The notes beneath the pieces are model-generated. The model did not search any database. It was given only the letters and a program-made list of their open reading frames with translations, and was not told the DNA's origin. Positions 1,689 through 13,151 of a DNA stretch of 29,086 bases are shown here, in pieces. Position numbers and translations under genes: made by a program. The DNA comes from a virus. The stretch is from the IMG/VR virus record IMGVR_UViG_3300014913_000055, positions 1-29,086 of that record; one strand, written 5' to 3'. Positions within the stretch are counted from its first letter, which is position 1. Each line of letters starts with the position of its first letter.

Positions 1689-3575
1689 TTATTGTGGTTG
1701 TTGCGGAATTGCAGGCGCAGGCATACCGCCTTGAGATACCTCTTGTTCAGAAAGTAAAAATTCTTGATGTTGTTTTGCTAAATCATCAATAGCCTCTCTG
1801 ATATCTGGCTCCAATCTTGCATACCTTGAACCTTTCCTGAAATCATTAATAACTTTAAGCCTTATTGTATGATCTTCAAATGGCTCTGCTAATACCTCTA
1901 CTTGCCCCTGGTTTTCTATGATATTAAGGAGGTCTTGTTTTGCACCTATCTCATCTAACGATGTATATGCTCCGTCTATGTCTCCAAACTCAAGCATTTT
2001 CTTAGCTCTGTCCGGACTAATCAAACCTTCTTTCTTAAGCATTAAAATATATTGTTGTCTTTCACTTCTTGCTGCAGGTAAGCCAGTTCCCATCTTAACT
2101 GATATCCTTCTATTCCCGACAACGCTAGAACCTTTGAAATGATTAACTTCATACGCCATGTCTTCGCCTGTTATTCCGATAAGTCTTGGCTCTATATACT
2201 TTTTCTCAACTATCCCAAGTATACAATGGCACATCTTAGACAAAGTTGCTTCAAACGTAATAAGTTCAGGGCTTATCATTGAAAAATCATTTTCAGATAG
2301 GCTATCAATAGCAACGCCGCTTTTGACTCCTCCTGGTCTTCCCATGGAAGTATCATGCGAGTTCATAGCATCTTCCATATCTCTCCGAATTCTCATTAAC
2401 TCATTTATGATATATGAAGGGATAACTGCACCATTCTCATATGAAGGCTTAAATCCTTTGTTGTAATTCAATATCTGTCCTGTTTCATCATCATACTTTG
2501 TTGATAACTTAGATCCTCTAGGATTCAATAGTTTTCCGGTAAGAAGTTTCTTATATGATGAAATTCTTGTCAATGTCTCGTTATAATCTTGCTGAAGGTC
2601 TACAACTTGCTCAATGGCTCCCTGAGAATGAGAAGTAAATCCTAAATCTTGATATTTGCAATTAAATACAGGAATTTTCTTCCCTAATTCTTCAGGCATA
2701 TCTTCATTAAATAATAATTCATTATCAGTACATACAATCATCCTTCCATTCTTATGTTCTTTATTTGGTAAAGAATATTGAGTATAAACATAAACACCTT
2801 CCTTCTCATCCTCTTCGTTTATTTCACCTTCAAGCAATCTCTTAATTTGAGATTCTACTAAATCATTTTCTCCTTGAACAGGTTTAACATCTTTCCCATA
2901 CTCATAATATACTTGTTCAGGACTTATAAACCTTCTTTCCGTTATTGACCTGCCAAACCTATCTCTAAAGATATTTAATGGACTCGCTACTCTTACTTCT
3001 GCTTCTCCTACATCAGAATAAATAACATCTTTTTGCATTTCATCATAAACAAAAGCCTCTGCGTTTGGATTGTAATAAGGGATCATATATCCATTTCCAA
3101 TACTCAACATATAAAGCACTAACTTCATTATGATAGATTGCATCCCCGTAAAGTCTTGAGCTAACCAGATATTTCCTGAATTGCAAGTTTCCCAAAAATC
3201 TTCTAATACTTCCGTTGCTACTTTTGCAGCATCTCTATCCTTTTCTGTAAATGTTGTCGGCGCTGCGTGAACACTAGCTTTCATCCTAATTAATCTTGAG
3301 TATAAAGACCTAAACAATGGAAGAATATAATTGCTAACACGCCTTACATTACTTGCTTTCCTTATAGCCTCAATTTCCCAAACAATACGCTGTTCTACAG
3401 ATGTTAAATTTGCATAGTTGCTTTTCATGTCAAAATGATGTTTGCCATATAGAAACATAATATTAATCAATGCTTGTTTCTTAAATACTGTTCTGCCTTG
3501 ATCTATCTTCTTGACCTTCGTCTTTACATCAGAAATGATTTTCTTGTCTGGTATACTTATATTTATTTCAACCAT
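1689..3575 (-). CDS. Portal protein
   Basis: The protein has 628 residues, in the size range of portals of podovirus-like phages. It is expected to form the dodecameric ring at the head vertex through which TerL pumps DNA. The sequence is mixed alpha/beta with long helices. It has a Gln-rich segment near residues 330-345 (GAIEQVVDLQQDYNETLTRI), characteristic of the portal stem/wing region in related proteins, and a flexible Gln/Pro-rich C-terminal tail. It sits downstream of TerL with two small genes between, and 17 bases before the scaffold gene. The ATG start is at 3575, one base after the upstream stop codon. Order and size make the call fairly safe; the subfamily is not resolved. Confidence 0.85.
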   Translation of the reverse strand: MVEINISIPDKKIISDVKTKVKKIDQGRTVFKKQALINIMFLYGKHHFDMKSNYANLTSVEQRIVWEIEAIRKASNVRRVSNYILPLFRSLYSRLIRMKASVHAAPTTFTEKDRDAAKVATEVLEDFWETCNSGNIWLAQDFTGMQSIIMKLVLYMLSIGNGYMIPYYNPNAEAFVYDEMQKDVIYSDVGEAEVRVASPLNIFRDRFGRSITERRFISPEQVYYEYGKDVKPVQGENDLVESQIKRLLEGEINEEDEKEGVYVYTQYSLPNKEHKNGRMIVCTDNELLFNEDMPEELGKKIPVFNCKYQDLGFTSHSQGAIEQVVDLQQDYNETLTRISSYKKLLTGKLLNPRGSKLSTKYDDETGQILNYNKGFKPSYENGAVIPSYIINELMRIRRDMEDAMNSHDTSMGRPGGVKSGVAIDSLSENDFSMISPELITFEATLSKMCHCILGIVEKKYIEPRLIGITGEDMAYEVNHFKGSSVVGNRRISVKMGTGLPAARSERQQYILMLKKEGLISPDRAKKMLEFGDIDGAYTSLDEIGAKQDLLNIIENQGQVEVLAEPFEDHTIRLKVINDFRKGSRYARLEPDIREAIDDLAKQHQEFLLSEQEVSQGGMPAPAIPQQPQ

Positions 3576-3576
3576 A

Positions 3577-3915
3577 TTATCCCTCGTTCAATCCATCCTC
3601 GATTGCATCTTGTAAAGTTTTAAAGTTCTTTGGTGCTTTTCCGAAATCTATTGAGATTAATTCTATATCCATTGAATCATTCTTTTTGCTTTCCTTCCCA
3701 TCTTTAATAGTCGTTCTCTCGTTTATCTCTTTTATCCTAAGAGTTACAGGAACGGTTATAGTCTTACCCACAATCCTAGAATCAACATCATCTAGATTAA
3801 TGTCATGTATATACGCAGTAGGATAACTAATCTTCATTTTTTTAGGTTTCTCTACTTCCTTGACTTCTGGTTCACTGCTATAGTCTTCAATCTTTCTTCC
3901 TAAGTTTAGTTTCAT
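3577..3915 (-). CDS. Hypothetical head-region protein
   Basis: This 112-residue protein has a charged N-terminus (about residues 1-28, Lys/Glu rich). A likely beta-rich domain follows (YPTAYIHDINLDDVDSRIVG, then strands with VPVTLRIKEINERTTI and MDIELISIDFG). The ATG overlaps the upstream stop by four bases (ATGA, 3912-3915) and the stop lies just before the portal start, so it is probably translated with its neighbours. I do not recognise a named family. Position between terminase and portal suggests a small head or packaging accessory protein, or an internal protein of the prohead, but this is inference. Confidence 0.6.
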   Translation of the reverse strand: MKLNLGRKIEDYSSEPEVKEVEKPKKMKISYPTAYIHDINLDDVDSRIVGKTITVPVTLRIKEINERTTIKDGKESKKNDSMDIELISIDFGKAPKNFKTLQDAIEDGLNEG

Positions 3916-4103
3916 AATCCAATCGACTCCTTTACAATAGGTCTGCCTTCATCGTCAACTTCTTCTTTCTGCTCTTCAATAGGCAAAGCCCCCGAGTCAG
4001 ACAAATCTGGCTTAGGGGCTAATTGGAAGAGAAGTTGCTCGACTAGACCTCTTAAATGTTTATTTTCATCTTTTAAGACTTCACATGTCTTGCATTTAAA
4101 CAT
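3912..4103 (-). CDS. Small CxxC/coiled-coil protein
   Basis: This 63-residue protein starts MFKCKTCEVLKDENKHLRGL. It has one CxxC pair followed by a heptad-like helix and then an acidic, proline-containing tail. I take the ATG at 4103, eight bases after AAAGGGA, instead of the in-frame TTG at 4109, which is too close to that site. One CxxC pair could contribute to zinc binding only if the protein dimerises. Similar short CxxC-plus-helix proteins are common near phage portal genes but their function is not known to me. The gene contains a strong hairpin at 3987-4020 (see findings). It is the first gene after the 440-base non-coding region. Confidence 0.6.
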   Translation of the reverse strand: MFKCKTCEVLKDENKHLRGLVEQLLFQLAPKPDLSDSGALPIEEQKEEVDDEGRPIVKESIGL

Positions 4104-4140
4104 AACCAAAATCCCTTTTCTTTATATATTTATTATTGAT

Positions 4141-4547
4141 TAACTGTGTTGGAATTTGTTTTAGTAGGAAGTTTTACTTGTTATCCCCTGCTCAAGTTCT
4201 CTTATCTTAAATATAGCTCGGGTTAAACTCTTTTTCCTAGGATACCCTAAGAGTGAGTTTACTGCACTTTAGTGCAACTATATCCAAGAAAGAGATTTTA
4301 TATATTTATCCGACTACTAAGTTGCATCCTAGTCGAGGTTGAATGGTTATACCCGAGTTCATCCTTCAATCAATCCTCTCTTGTAGACCTGAGTCCTCAT
4401 GCGTTATTACAGCAGTAAGTTTTGTTGTAGTAAAAACCTAGTGAAAAACCTTTTATATATTCCCAACAAAAAAGGACAAATCCACATTGCAATGAATTTG
4501 CCCTACATATATTGTTGGATAACTAGGAGCGACCTAGTTATTTTTTA
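4141..4547 (+). ncRNA. Candidate structured non-coding RNA, plus strand
   Basis: About 440 bases (4104-4550) between terL and the next gene hold no supported reading frame but many mutually compatible helices. Visible pairings are 4171-4178 with 4429-4437 (one bulge), 4191-4200 with 4385-4393 (one mismatch, one bulge), 4211-4216 with 4278-4283 enclosing hairpins at 4225-4260 and 4263-4276, 4311-4316 with 4330-4335, and 4463-4469 with 4512-4518. Two pairings cross these helices: CTCGGGT (4218-4224) with ACCCGAG (4351-4357), and TGCAAC (4273-4278) with GTTGCA (4321-4326). The 3' end is a terminator that works only on the plus strand. No clear -35/-10 pair was found near 4105-4140, so the 5' end is approximate. 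I cannot match it to a named RNA class. A minus-strand RNA is not excluded. Confidence 0.6.
4521..4547 (+). terminator. Rho-independent terminator, plus strand
   Basis: TAACTAGG (4521-4528), loop AGCGA, and CCTAGTTA (4534-4541) form a perfect 8-bp stem followed by TTTTTT (4542-4547). On the minus strand the stem is followed by CCAACAAT with no U tract, so termination is expected for plus-strand transcripts. It lies four bases beyond the terL stop and would stop antisense transcription into terL. It is the only convincing intrinsic terminator I saw in the window. Confidence 0.75.
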
Positions 4548-4550
4548 ATC

Positions 4551-6011
4551 TTAGTCTAAACTTCTAAATCCTATATCCTCATCTAGATTAATATCTATAT
4601 CTGCATTAGTCAAGGTATTTTTTGTTTTGTTTATCATGTCCTGTTTTACCTTACGCCAGAAAAGTTGGTTCTCAGTCAATGGCTTCTTTTCTTGGAAATC
4701 ATCTAAATAAAGAAAATCCCTTGCTCCCCAAATTGCCAGAGATAAACTTATTACTGCATCATCATGATAAATATCATTTCCCATCTCATCTTTTCCAATA
4801 GGTGCAGCATACTTAAACTTGCCAGATGATGACTTTGTTGCCTCAAATTGAATTAATTCTTGAATTTGGATTTCTTTGCCTTCTGAATTCTTTATCCTTG
4901 GTATCCTTATTGCCTGAACCTCAATTACAACCTTTAGTTTTTCAATTAAATTCTCTTTCGATACTCCAGTAAATTTAACTCCTGAAGTGTTCTTCCCAGA
5001 CTCTGTTTCTTCGTAATAAACATTCCCTCCCATTCTTTCAAGATCTTCCACAATAGGGTCCCCAACCCCTGTGCTATCAGGAACAATTAAAGCATTATTG
5101 TATCTTTTGCTTATAGCCAATGTCTTTTGCTTCTGATAAAACCAACTAGCCTTATTCTCGTTCTCTAGTCTCTCCCAATATACTTGGCATTTAAGTTCTA
5201 CGCAGATAACCGTAAACACAGTATGATCAACACTCTTTGCATAATCAGCTCCTAAGACATAATGAAATCGTGGATCAGGAGGTATCTCCGTTGGTAAATT
5301 ATCGTCAACAATCCCCTCAACGCCTCTAAACGCTGCACTATTAGCTTGATCCATTGGAATACCTAACCAATGATGCCTATAATCTTCTATGTTCTTTGAT
5401 TTAAGCAACATAGCCTCATTTATTGACTTCTGAGGACAAAAAGGATTCTCAAAGTAATCAATGTGAATATGCAAACAGTCTTCCCTGTCAGCAAACTCAA
5501 CGAAGATAGGGTCATGCTTCAGGTATCTGTTCATAGTGTAATAAACTTTTGCATTTTGTTCTCTTATCGTAGGAATAATAATCTTTAGGGTTTCAGCGGT
5601 TATTGATTGGGCCTCATCAATCCATAAAACATCAACACCCTCTAAACCTTTGATGCTTACTTTTCCTTTCTCCCTGAATCCCTTAAATGTTATTTCTGTG
5701 CCTGATACTCGATGTACTAATCTCTCGGCATAGATTCGATAATTGAGCTTATATTCTAATATCAAATTCTTTAGAAGAGCATATACAGATTCTTTAATGT
5801 CATTCTGGATTTCTCTACCACAGACAATTGTTAACTTTTCCATCTCCCCAAGGACTGAAATTAATCTTCCTGCTGTTTGAGACTTCGCAGAAACTCGTCC
5901 ACCTTCAATAAGAAAATAATTGTACGAATCTATATCAGTTATTAGTGGCATTAATTTAGGAGGGATATTTAATATTGCAGGTAACTTGATTTCTTCTTGG
6001 AGGTTGTTCAT
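4551..6011 (-). CDS. terL: Terminase large subunit
   Basis: This 486-residue protein is the packaging motor ATPase and headful or cos nuclease. The ATPase half shows a Walker A-type loop, EGGRVSAKSQT (about 36-46), and a Walker B strand, VDVLWIDEAQ (126-135), with D132 and catalytic E133. The RNase H-like nuclease half has acidic residues D256 (GADYAKSVDHT), D312 (IVPDSTGVGDP) and D417/D418 (YHDDAVISLSLA). This pattern fits the PBSX/Terminase_3-like group. The length is normal and all key residues are present. ATG at 6011 overlaps the terS stop (ATGA). It acts with TerS and docks on the portal encoded about 1 kb downstream. Confidence 0.95.
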   Translation of the reverse strand: MNNLQEEIKLPAILNIPPKLMPLITDIDSYNYFLIEGGRVSAKSQTAGRLISVLGEMEKLTIVCGREIQNDIKESVYALLKNLILEYKLNYRIYAERLVHRVSGTEITFKGFREKGKVSIKGLEGVDVLWIDEAQSITAETLKIIIPTIREQNAKVYYTMNRYLKHDPIFVEFADREDCLHIHIDYFENPFCPQKSINEAMLLKSKNIEDYRHHWLGIPMDQANSAAFRGVEGIVDDNLPTEIPPDPRFHYVLGADYAKSVDHTVFTVICVELKCQVYWERLENENKASWFYQKQKTLAISKRYNNALIVPDSTGVGDPIVEDLERMGGNVYYEETESGKNTSGVKFTGVSKENLIEKLKVVIEVQAIRIPRIKNSEGKEIQIQELIQFEATKSSSGKFKYAAPIGKDEMGNDIYHDDAVISLSLAIWGARDFLYLDDFQEKKPLTENQLFWRKVKQDMINKTKNTLTNADIDINLDEDIGFRSLD

Positions 6012-6517
6012 TCTTTTTTCTTTTTTTGTTTCCCTATTTTAGGCTCCCATTTCTTACCGCCTATGGTTATTTGAGGCATTACTGTTACATTTACAGTAGT
6101 CTCTCGTTCGTCATCAGTAAACATCTTTAAGTATTGTCCTAAAAGCTTATTAGCACCCAACGCTCCAGAAGCATCAAACTTAGATTTAACTATATTTCCG
6201 TTTTTGTCTTTTGTTTCAACTTGCCCTAAACAAGTTTCACTGACCTTATCTATATTTCTCAATACTTTCTTAATGTCTATTTTAAGAGCCTTTATAGTGT
6301 TCTGGAGCAATGATTCATAGAACCTCTGGACGTTGATATACTGAGGAGCTTTCAATAACCTACTTCCAATCGTAAAAGCTGCTTTCTCGCTGAATCCTGC
6401 TCTCTTAGCCGCCTTTGTAATATCTTTCTTTGGATCAGAAGCAAGTTCATAGCAGAACAACCTTTGTCTGGTTGTTATCACATGTTCAAGATCTTTAATT
6501 TTTACTCTCTTAGCCAT
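6008..6517 (-). CDS. terS: Terminase small subunit
   Basis: This 169-residue protein starts with the pattern of the Terminase_2/small-subunit family: RQRLFCYELASDPKKDITKA followed by AAKRAGFSEKAA, a helix-turn-helix for recognising the packaging site. A helical oligomerisation region follows (about 60-100), then a beta/loop region and a strongly basic C-terminus ending in KKKKE, which may contact TerL or DNA. The gene directly precedes and overlaps terL by four bases. The ATG start at 6517 is preceded by GAGGATAA and lies four bases past the stop of the upstream zinc-ribbon gene. Confidence 0.88.
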   Translation of the reverse strand: MAKRVKIKDLEHVITTRQRLFCYELASDPKKDITKAAKRAGFSEKAAFTIGSRLLKAPQYINVQRFYESLLQNTIKALKIDIKKVLRNIDKVSETCLGQVETKDKNGNIVKSKFDASGALGANKLLGQYLKMFTDDERETTVNVTVMPQITIGGKKWEPKIGKQKKKKE

Positions 6518-6520
6518 TAG

Positions 6521-6691
6521 TTATTTATCCTCGCAAGGTTCTTCCCACCCGTAGCCACAAGTAGAACATTTCCTCAAAAGACACTCTTCAGCCTTCTCAG
6601 AAACCTTATCTTTGCTACTGGTGCTAGCCTTACAATATTTCACAGTAAGATCTTTACCTCCGCACTTCACACAATTTATTGTCTTTGCCAT
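6521..6691 (-). CDS. Small zinc-ribbon protein
   Basis: This 56-residue gene starts MAKTINCVKCGGKDLTVKYC and carries CVKC near the N-terminus and CSTCGYGWEEPC near the C-terminus, with extra cysteines between them, as in a zinc ribbon. The ATG at 6691 is nine bases after GGAGG; another ATG six bases earlier is too close to that site. It ends four bases before terS, suggesting coupled translation. It may bind nucleic acid or be a packaging accessory protein, but no specific role can be read from the sequence. Confidence 0.7.
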   Translation of the reverse strand: MAKTINCVKCGGKDLTVKYCKASTSSKDKVSEKAEECLLRKCSTCGYGWEEPCEDK

Positions 6692-6827
6692 AATCATTTT
6701 CCTCCATGCTTTTTATATTAGCACTCTTCTCCTTTAAGTGCAAATCATTTCTTGCATAAATTTTATCTATATGATGGTAAATCTCTTCATTTACCTTTAT
6801 TTTACTTGATGGGTTTTGAGTGAGCAT
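6654..6827 (-). CDS. Small hypothetical protein
   Basis: The 57-residue frame begins MLTQNPSSKIKVNEEIYHHI at an ATG placed eight bases after GGGAG, which is a good ribosome-binding site. It overlaps the upstream gene by 26 bases and the zinc-ribbon gene by 38 bases. The last 20 or so codons run through the ribosome-binding site and start of the zinc-ribbon gene, so that part may be non-conserved tail. The region has no better frame, and without it 6698-6801 would be a gap in a very dense gene array. No family recognised. Confidence 0.45.
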   Translation of the reverse strand: MLTQNPSSKIKVNEEIYHHIDKIYARNDLHLKEKSANIKSMEENDYGKDNKLCEVRR

Positions 6828-7092
6828 AGAAACAACTCCCATTTAACTCTTCAATTATTACTTTGGCTAAAGTAACATCATCTAATATTTTATTTGTAGT
6901 AAAATACCCTGCATGACTTCTATGCCCTTTCATAATAGCATCTTGAATCCTCTCCTCATCCAACCTAGATACTATCTCTAAGGCTTTTATGGCTAAGGCA
7001 GTAGCTTCCATTCTCTCCAATCTAGTGTATTTATTATTAAATTGGACTTTGTTTTCTTCTTCTAACACTTCTATCGCTTCTCTTGAGTCCAT
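6802..7092 (-). CDS. Hypothetical early protein
   Basis: This 96-residue, mostly helical protein starts with MDSREAIEVLEEENKVQFNN and continues with helices rich in Ala, Ile and Glu. The opening (acidic residue-REAIEVL) resembles many small phage proteins that begin with a 'D..EAI..L' helix, whose function is unknown. It lies in the array of small accessory genes between the radical SAM gene and terS, four bases after the preceding gene. ATG at 7092. Confidence 0.6.
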   Translation of the reverse strand: MDSREAIEVLEEENKVQFNNKYTRLERMEATALAIKALEIVSRLDEERIQDAIMKGHRSHAGYFTTNKILDDVTLAKVIIEELNGSCFYAHSKPIK

Positions 7093-7096
7093 TGTC

Positions 7097-7279
7097 TTAC
7101 TCCTTAGTAAATTGGTGACACGCTTTGTTATAAACTTTAATTTTTAATAATTTATTGTATGTTCTATTTGATTTTCTTACTCCGCAATACTGAATAACCC
7201 TTCCACCACATTGCCACCTTTGCCTATGCTTACAGTTCTTGCAAAATCCTTCTGGTAGCTTTATATCAAATAGATTCAT
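7097..7279 (-). CDS. Small Cys-rich protein, probable zinc binding
   Basis: This 60-residue protein has four or five cysteines in a compact pattern: FCKNCKHRQRWQCGG, then IQYCGVRKSNRTYNKLLKIK, then ACHQF. Small phage proteins with C-x-x-C-x-H-R-x-R-W and Q-Y-C-x-x-R-x-S-N-R-T patterns are frequent in accessory regions and are expected to bind zinc; no function is established to my knowledge. ATG at 7279, four bases downstream of the DUF551 gene stop. Confidence 0.68.
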   Translation of the reverse strand: MNLFDIKLPEGFCKNCKHRQRWQCGGRVIQYCGVRKSNRTYNKLLKIKVYNKACHQFTKE

Positions 7280-12323: not shown

Positions 12324-12965
12324 TTATTTCTTATTTTTTTGATTTATAAAAATACAATCACATTTAGACTCTTTTTTTGTAATTCCTAGTTTTCTATAAT
12401 AACAATAATGGTTTATTGAATCACAATATATTCTTATATTAAAACTTTTATATAGAATATCTCTTCTCTCTCTTGTGTATTTTCGTGTATTTATCTTATT
12501 ATTTGGACTTATTATTATATCTAACCAAGAATATACAGATTCAAGATTTATTTTTTTGGATCTTTTTTCCATGTTTCTTAGTATCCTAGATACCCTATCC
12601 ATACGAGCGCTCAGTATTGCAATATCTTCTTCTGTCCGGTTTTTAAATGAATCAACATCTTTTAATATTTTCTCATGCTTAGCATTATTTTTGTATCTTA
12701 ACACGCACAATCCTAAAGAAAACAAATATGAATCACGCCTATCATCATTAGAAATATGTCTCTCATGGACTCCCCCGTCTAATTCAACAATGACTCCTTT
12801 GCATGGGAAAAAGAAATCAACAATAAATGGGTGAATAGCAAATTGCTTTTTATGCTTAACATTATTGCTATTTAAAAAATTAGAGAAGAGCTTCTCTGGG
12901 ACTGTTTCTCTAGACAGTAAAACTCTCCTAAATTCTTTCCGTTGTTTTACTACATTGTTTTTCAT
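12324..12965 (-). CDS. DUF559/Vsr-like PD-(D/E)XK endonuclease with C-terminal extension
   Basis: This 213-residue protein has a clear DUF559 core in its first 95 residues. E25 is in TVPEKLFSNFL, D50 in FIVDFFFP, E61-x-D63 in VIVELDGGVHERH, then DDRRDSYLFSLGLCVLRYKN. This is the Vsr-like PD-(D/E)XK fold used by mismatch nicking enzymes and several homing-type nucleases, and the catalytic residues are intact. The remaining 115 residues are unusual for the family: a coiled-coil-like helix (about 110-140) and a basic, Tyr/Cys-containing tail that may bind DNA or RNA. The gene has its own probable promoter and structured leader, so it may be a mobile unit. ATG at 12965 follows AAGGATAA. Confidence 0.82.
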   Translation of the reverse strand: MKNNVVKQRKEFRRVLLSRETVPEKLFSNFLNSNNVKHKKQFAIHPFIVDFFFPCKGVIVELDGGVHERHISNDDRRDSYLFSLGLCVLRYKNNAKHEKILKDVDSFKNRTEEDIAILSARMDRVSRILRNMEKRSKKINLESVYSWLDIIISPNNKINTRKYTRERRDILYKSFNIRIYCDSINHYCYYRKLGITKKESKCDCIFINQKNKK

Positions 12966-12977
12966 TAGGTTATCCTT

Positions 12978-13113
12978 CTATGAAACTGCCCCTCTGCGAC
13001 CTTGCTAAGAGGATGATTCAATTATATGTCAAGAGACATACGAATCACGCAGAGAGACAATATATGTAAAATAGGTTTTTTATTTTGATTTAATTTTAGC
13101 AAGGTTTTCATAG
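12978..13113 (-). ncRNA. Pseudoknotted leader RNA of the DUF559 gene
   Basis: On the minus strand the 18-base arm at 13113-13096 (CTATGAAA then ACCTTGCTAA) pairs with two downstream pieces: TTAGCAAGGT (13008-12999, 10 bp) and TTTCATAG (12985-12978, 8 bp). The 13 bases between those pieces form a bulge whose CGCAGAG (12998-12992) pairs with CTCTGCG (13054-13048), giving a 7-bp pseudoknot. Directly after it, TGATTC (13047-13042) pairs with GAATCA (13019-13014), capped by TATGTC/GACATA with a four-base loop. In total 37 bp of perfect helices lie in 136 bases. The fold ends at the AAGGA ribosome-binding site of the nuclease gene. I know no named RNA class with this order of helices. Confidence 0.65.
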
Positions 13114-13118
13114 TTCAT

Positions 13119-13147
13119 ATTCTCTCATACTTCATTTAAAAAGTCAA
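13119..13147 (-). promoter_or_regulatory. Predicted sigma70 promoter for the leader RNA and DUF559 gene
   Basis: TTGACT (13147-13142, five of six consensus) and GAGAAT (13124-13119, four of six) are separated by 17 bases on the minus strand. The expected start point, about seven bases on, is 13112-13111, which is where the pseudoknotted RNA begins. It lies just after the stop of the preceding gene. The -10 box is imperfect, and chance matches occur in AT-rich DNA. Confidence 0.5.
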
Positions 13148-13151
13148 GCGT

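Follow-up and report, generated by a model that had tools for sequence, protein, structure and literature searches.

The gap between terL and the portal operon

The DNA analysed here (the window) is a virus record of 29,086 bases, in which the main genes lie on the minus strand, referred to below as the gene strand. The terminase and portal genes were recognised by PHROG searches. Between terL, the upstream neighbour on the gene strand, and the first gene of the portal operon, which encodes a protein of 63-65 aa (MFKCKTCEVLKDEN...), there is a gap of 441-447 nt (Table 1). The gap extends from 4110 to 4550, or from 4104 if translation of the 65-aa gene begins at ATG 4103, as it does in its relative; 72% identical relatives of this gene were found in loci L012/L013, and their ATG lies at the position corresponding to 4103.

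There was no ORF of more than 49 aa in 4110-4550, and the gap was the longest internal stretch of the window that lacked a gene-strand ORF of at least 40 aa. The next such stretch measured 186 nt. The earlier note's identification of 4104-4550 as the longest non-coding stretch was borne out, and its description of the genome as otherwise gapless was roughly true. At 34%, the G+C content of the gap matched that of the window as a whole (35%). Neither a tRNA nor a tmRNA was found in the gap, and a search against Rfam 15 returned no family at the gathering threshold; the matches obtained up to an E value of 10 were at chance level.

Table 1. Positions of genes and sequence features in and around the gap
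Feature	Position	Strand	Details
Portal gene	1689-3575		recognised by PHROGs
63-65-aa gene	3912-4103	minus	first gene of portal operon
AATATATAAAG box	4120-4130	minus	consensus resemblance only
Three-way junction	4198-4295	minus	98 nt; MFE -37.3 kcal/mol; z -6.0; 0/1000 shuffles
CTCGGGT/ACCCGAG	4217-4223/4351-4357		long-range complementary pair
CTAGGAT/ATCCTAG	4237-4243/4326-4332		long-range complementary pair
TGCAACT/AGTTGCA	4273-4279/4320-4326		long-range complementary pair
AATATATAAAA boxes	4296-4306 and 4451-4461	minus	consensus resemblance only
Hairpin UUAUUACAGCAG/UUGUUGUAGUAA	4404-4415/4422-4433 (region 4400-4437)	plus	12 bp; z -3.95 vs -0.82 on minus; P 0.95
Gene-strand terminator	4504-4473 (region 4463-4518)	minus	13 pairs; loop 6; T6
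Post-terL hairpin	4519-4547		directly after terL; A6 tract before hairpin on gene strand
TerL (large subunit, 486 aa)	4551-6011	minus	phrog_2/3717 (phrog_3717, E 1.5e-36)
TerS (small subunit)	6008-6517		phrog_51 (5.8e-19)

Folding of the gap on the two strands

The folding strength of both strands was compared with that of dinucleotide shuffles. The whole gap (4110-4550) gave z-scores of -3.3 on the plus strand and -4.2 on the minus strand. Within it, 4461-4550 (z -6.1 minus, -4.2 plus) and 4198-4295 (z -6.0 minus, -3.6 plus) folded better on the gene strand, whereas 4216-4437 (z -3.8 plus, -2.2 minus) and the region of the 12-bp hairpin folded better on the plus strand; these sub-windows were picked after the folds had been seen, which somewhat flatters their z-scores and leaves the ranking of tiles unaffected. 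When the whole window was scanned in 1160 tiles of 100 bases each, 4451-4550 on the minus strand had the lowest score of all (z -8.1) and 4201-4300 on the minus strand ranked fourth. The gap is more folded than expected by chance, with the evidence divided between the strands and its strongest parts on the gene strand. These results support the presence of a structured non-coding region in the gap.

In the 4104-4440 part of the gap the best-folding domain was the gene-strand three-way junction, located about 95 nt before ATG 4103 and on the strand opposite to the plus-strand RNA proposed in the earlier note. It consisted of a 20-bp closing stem (6+14; P 0.95), a hairpin GCAC-UAAA-GUGC and a hairpin of 7+7 bp. 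The closing stem includes three G-U pairs and forms on the minus strand only. The 12-bp hairpin at 4404-4433 also has three G-U pairs and is stable on the plus strand only.

The proposed plus-strand fold depended on long-range helices that were said to be mutually compatible and to include a pseudoknot. The individual pairings were there. The complementarity of CTCGGGT and ACCCGAG was unusual, a GC-rich 7-mer complement of this kind being present in 3 of 200 shuffles, and its left arm lay one base from the position first given; the six-base loop pairing of TGCAAC (4273-4278) with GTTGCA (4321-4326) was likewise found. Four complementary 7-mers with at least three G/C were seen in comparison to 0.84 expected, a number reached by 2 of 200 shuffles. 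The mutual compatibility of these helices was not confirmed. Bases 4273-4276 also take part in the hairpin TGCAC 4263-4267/GTGCA 4272-4276 (P ~0.95), and the energy model paired GCTCGGGTT with a rival partner, GACCTGAGT at 4386-4394, and not with the partner that had been proposed, a pairing that forms on the plus strand only; CTCGGGT was paired with this rival at P 0.83-0.93 in shorter folds and 0.52 over the whole gap. Furthermore, the three long-range pairs within 4217-4357 are all nested in one another, so that the two helices of the proposed pseudoknot are mutually nested and would form pseudoknots only with the local hairpins 4311-4335 and 4337-4371. The two partners of CTCGGGT 4217-4223 could possibly allow mutually exclusive folds. 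On the plus strand, ACCCGAGT (4351-4358) and ACCTGAGT (4387-4394) resemble a repeated partner site for CTCGGGT.

A separate hairpin, AGCCCC...GGGGCT, was observed on the minus strand in the coding sequence of the 65-aa gene (3975-4022). It is kept in L003 with a paired change (CAGA/TCTG vs CTGA/TCAG) at synonymous third positions, and the tile around it (3951-4050) had a z-score of -5.7 on the plus strand.

Terminators, promoter-like elements and related loci

There were nine terminator-like sites in the window, and the two with the longest stems (minus 4504-4473 and plus 4517-4543) were both in the gap. A stable stem-loop followed by a T-run, as in an intrinsic terminator, was present at 4504-4473 on the minus strand and at 4519-4546 on the plus strand. 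The gene-strand terminator is enclosed by an additional stem, CCAACAA/TTGTTGG (4518-4512/4469-4463). The post-terL hairpin is terminator-like when read on the plus strand, with a stem at 4519-4527/4533-4541 and T6 at 4541-4546; counted over about 4517-4546, the site has 11 pairs and a loop of 5. The plus-strand hairpin with T6 that had been reported is present, its T-run lying one base away from the earlier position, and the statement that the terminator is usable only on the plus strand is true of the hairpin 4519-4541 but overlooked the longer terminator on the minus strand. The arrangement is like the intrinsic terminators and convergent terminator pairs of phage operon boundaries in that GC-containing hairpins followed by T6 stand on each strand after terL. 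It differs from convergent pairs in that the hairpins are offset and one predicted hairpin is enclosed by an extra stem.

A consensus scan of the gap revealed no sigma70-like promoter site of at least 9/12 on either strand. Three AATATATAAA(A/G) boxes occur within 340 nt of the gap on the minus strand and are possible -10-like promoter elements; ATATATAAA was found five times in the window in comparison to 1.6 expected.

Relatives of the locus were taken from TerL searches. Two IMG/VR contigs carrying the same stretch (L002/L003; TerL 72-73% identity) and a contig in a Desulfobacterales MAG (L039; TerL 50% identity) share the window's order of flanking genes, and the other TerL relatives were more distant, most of them with almost no gap after terL. 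The gene orders in L003 (terL, extra gene, 65-aa gene, 112-aa gene, portal) and in L039 (terL, extra gene, 52-aa gene, 59-aa gene, portal) show a slot whose content varies. In the position of the window's gap, L003 has a gene for a 167-aa protein (6607-7110) and L039 a gene for a 280-aa protein (2627-3469); the window lacks the slot protein gene. No PHROG or Pfam family was found for the L003 protein and no PHROG family for the L039 protein. Both proteins begin with a signal-like segment and, as judged by eye, are possibly related.

L003 keeps a gene-strand terminator in the same place (AAGGAATCACTCACCCGGGTGGTTCCTT and a T8 run), with CCCAAA/TTTGGG as its enclosing stem in place of the window's CCAACAA/TTGTTGG; none was detected in L039 by the consensus scan. 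An A-rich tract and a hairpin directly after terL were common to the window, L003 and L039, and the stem sequences differed. The arms are ATAACTAGG/CCTAGTTAT (AACTAGG/CCTAGTT) in the window, ACGCTT/AAGCGT with an inner mismatch in L003, and ACCCTGGT/ATCGGGGT in L039, where two G-U pairs exist only in the gene-strand RNA. Since GGTCG and CCARCAATATAT are still shared around the hairpin, the hairpins of the window and L039 appear to be one element that has undergone several paired changes, as read by eye from an alignment in which the 3' arm is shifted by one base. In the plus direction the hairpin is followed by T6 in the window, TTTCTATTT in L003 and T7 in L039. The L003 and L039 hairpins were not listed as terminators by the consensus scan, owing to loop size and bulges, and their strength is uncertain.

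Searches for homologues of the core of the gap (4198-4437) returned the window alone. Comparison of the gap with phages by blastn gave only short chance matches, blastn over the TerL-related loci found no homologue of the core, and scans of IMG/VR with exact 16-mers from three core parts matched only in unrelated contexts. The best plasmid match (E 0.09 over 50 nt, in Acinetobacter plasmids) was unannotated, lay next to a repeat of TGCAACTATA and was judged to be due to chance. Single-sequence covariance models of the minus strand (R1) and the plus strand (R2), which are weak enough that absence is not proof, detected only the window itself over 89 loci, and R1 found nothing in 6 related records or in 390 genomes of the order to which the genome of L039 belongs. 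Among the titles and abstracts that literature searches returned, none described such an RNA at the terL-portal position. A group I or II intron or known ribozyme was rejected: there was no Rfam match, and terL is uninterrupted and can be aligned over its full length with that of L003. When the group I P3/P7 layout was examined by hand on both strands, the plus strand had no room for P8 and the minus strand was nested. The elements of an HDV-like layout were in the wrong order.

Possible functions of the gap

We favour, if only tentatively, a reading in which the gap combines a terL 3'-end insulator/terminator with an orphan gene-strand leader, structured and belonging to the portal operon. 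The gap, read chiefly on the minus strand, would separate transcription of the terminase genes from that of the portal/capsid operon. The conserved hairpin would come directly after the terL stop codon and be followed by the gene-strand terminator, at which the terminase transcript most likely stops, around position 4467; for transcription arriving from the opposite side the same hairpin, with its T-run, would prevent antisense reading into terL. From this boundary to the 65-aa gene, the protein gene of the relatives would be replaced by some 350 nt that fold strongly and are not translated. The 98-nt junction most likely lies in the 5' leader of the mRNA that carries the portal operon, and the leader may influence how that mRNA is processed, stabilised or translated. 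This reading is consistent with the strongest folds of the gap being on the gene strand, with the putative 13-pair minus terminator and its similarly enclosed equivalent in L003, with the apparent retention of the post-terL hairpin in both relatives despite changed stems, and with the variable slot in their gene orders. The failure to find a homologue of the 98-nt domain, a minus promoter of at least 9/12 in the gap or a gene-strand terminator in L039 argues against it, as do the hairpin 4404-4433 and the fold of 4216-4437, both of which favour the plus strand.

Phage late operons have structured 5' leaders, including RNase III processing stems and cis-regulatory leaders. The gap would resemble these in its long 20-bp duplex, branched at one end, which stands ahead of the first portal-operon gene on the same strand; it differs in having no recognised promoter or family match and no known ligand or cleavage site.

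It is somewhat unlikely that the gap is a former cargo slot without RNA function, from which a protein gene was lost and in which repeat-rich sequence now stands, its folding a by-product and its short inverted and direct repeats serving as promoter/operator boxes or other DNA-level elements. The protein genes at the same place in L003 and L039, the many imperfect repeats with the three boxes, and the lack of detectable relatives of the sequence agree with such a history, and a possible 3'-end leftover was found at the gap edge, where GTTAATCAATAA is shared with the 3' end of the L003 protein gene and NSNTVNQ* resembles, by eye, the last eight codons of that gene (NSCTVNQ*). The fold energies and GC-rich complementary pairs, however, exceed those of dinucleotide shuffles. 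A decayed copy of the 167-aa gene was rejected, as tblastn detected no trace of it. Because nothing beyond the last eight codons remains of the L003 gene, we infer that the slot was refilled and not slowly decayed.

The earlier note proposed a divergent plus-strand RNA gene. Such a gene, for a non-coding RNA that is about 330 nt long, starts inside the gap, ends at 4541-4546 and is perhaps antisense or regulatory, is unlikely, even though the fold of 4216-4437, the plus-only hairpin 4404-4433 and the terminator-like hairpin with T6 would suit it. No plus-strand promoter-like site in the gap reached 9/12, the most significant sub-domain favoured the minus strand, and the R2 model had no homologue in 89 sources. 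The plus-facing terminator-like element regularly accompanies the end of terL in these phages, where it occurs without an RNA gene; since L003 and L039 carry a protein gene at the slot and keep the hairpin with its T-rich tract, it is no evidence for one. A terminator that faces the other way beside terL does not have to signify an RNA gene, because it persists in relatives that lack the RNA. A more specific version is quite improbable: here the plus-strand RNA of about 330 nt would be confined to this lineage, have a kissing-loop or pseudoknot core and stand in place of the slot's protein gene, working in trans or as an antisense regulator of the packaging module. If a protein gene was replaced by a folded RNA, the terL-portal slot would be a place in which to seek phage regulatory RNAs. 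In size (a few hundred nt), multi-helix folding and occurrence in a phage genome the gap is like the large structured phage RNAs in Rfam, from which it differs in having only chance-level matches to Rfam 15.

The suggestion of a packaging-linked RNA was without support: a phi29-like pRNA working with the terminase motor, to which the gap is alike only as a candidate phage non-coding RNA near the packaging ATPase gene, is very unlikely indeed, because this genome encodes both TerS and TerL, not a phi29-like ATPase without the classical pair, and there was no Rfam match; relatives with the same TerL family also lack the RNA.

The second-longest ORF-free stretch of the window (12966-13151) gave no credible match to an Rfam family. 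It adjoins a DUF559 endonuclease-like gene (12324-12965), contains an inverted repeat (CTATGAAA..CCTTGCTA / TAGCAAGG..TTTTCATAG) and folded with a z-score of -3.3 on the minus strand.
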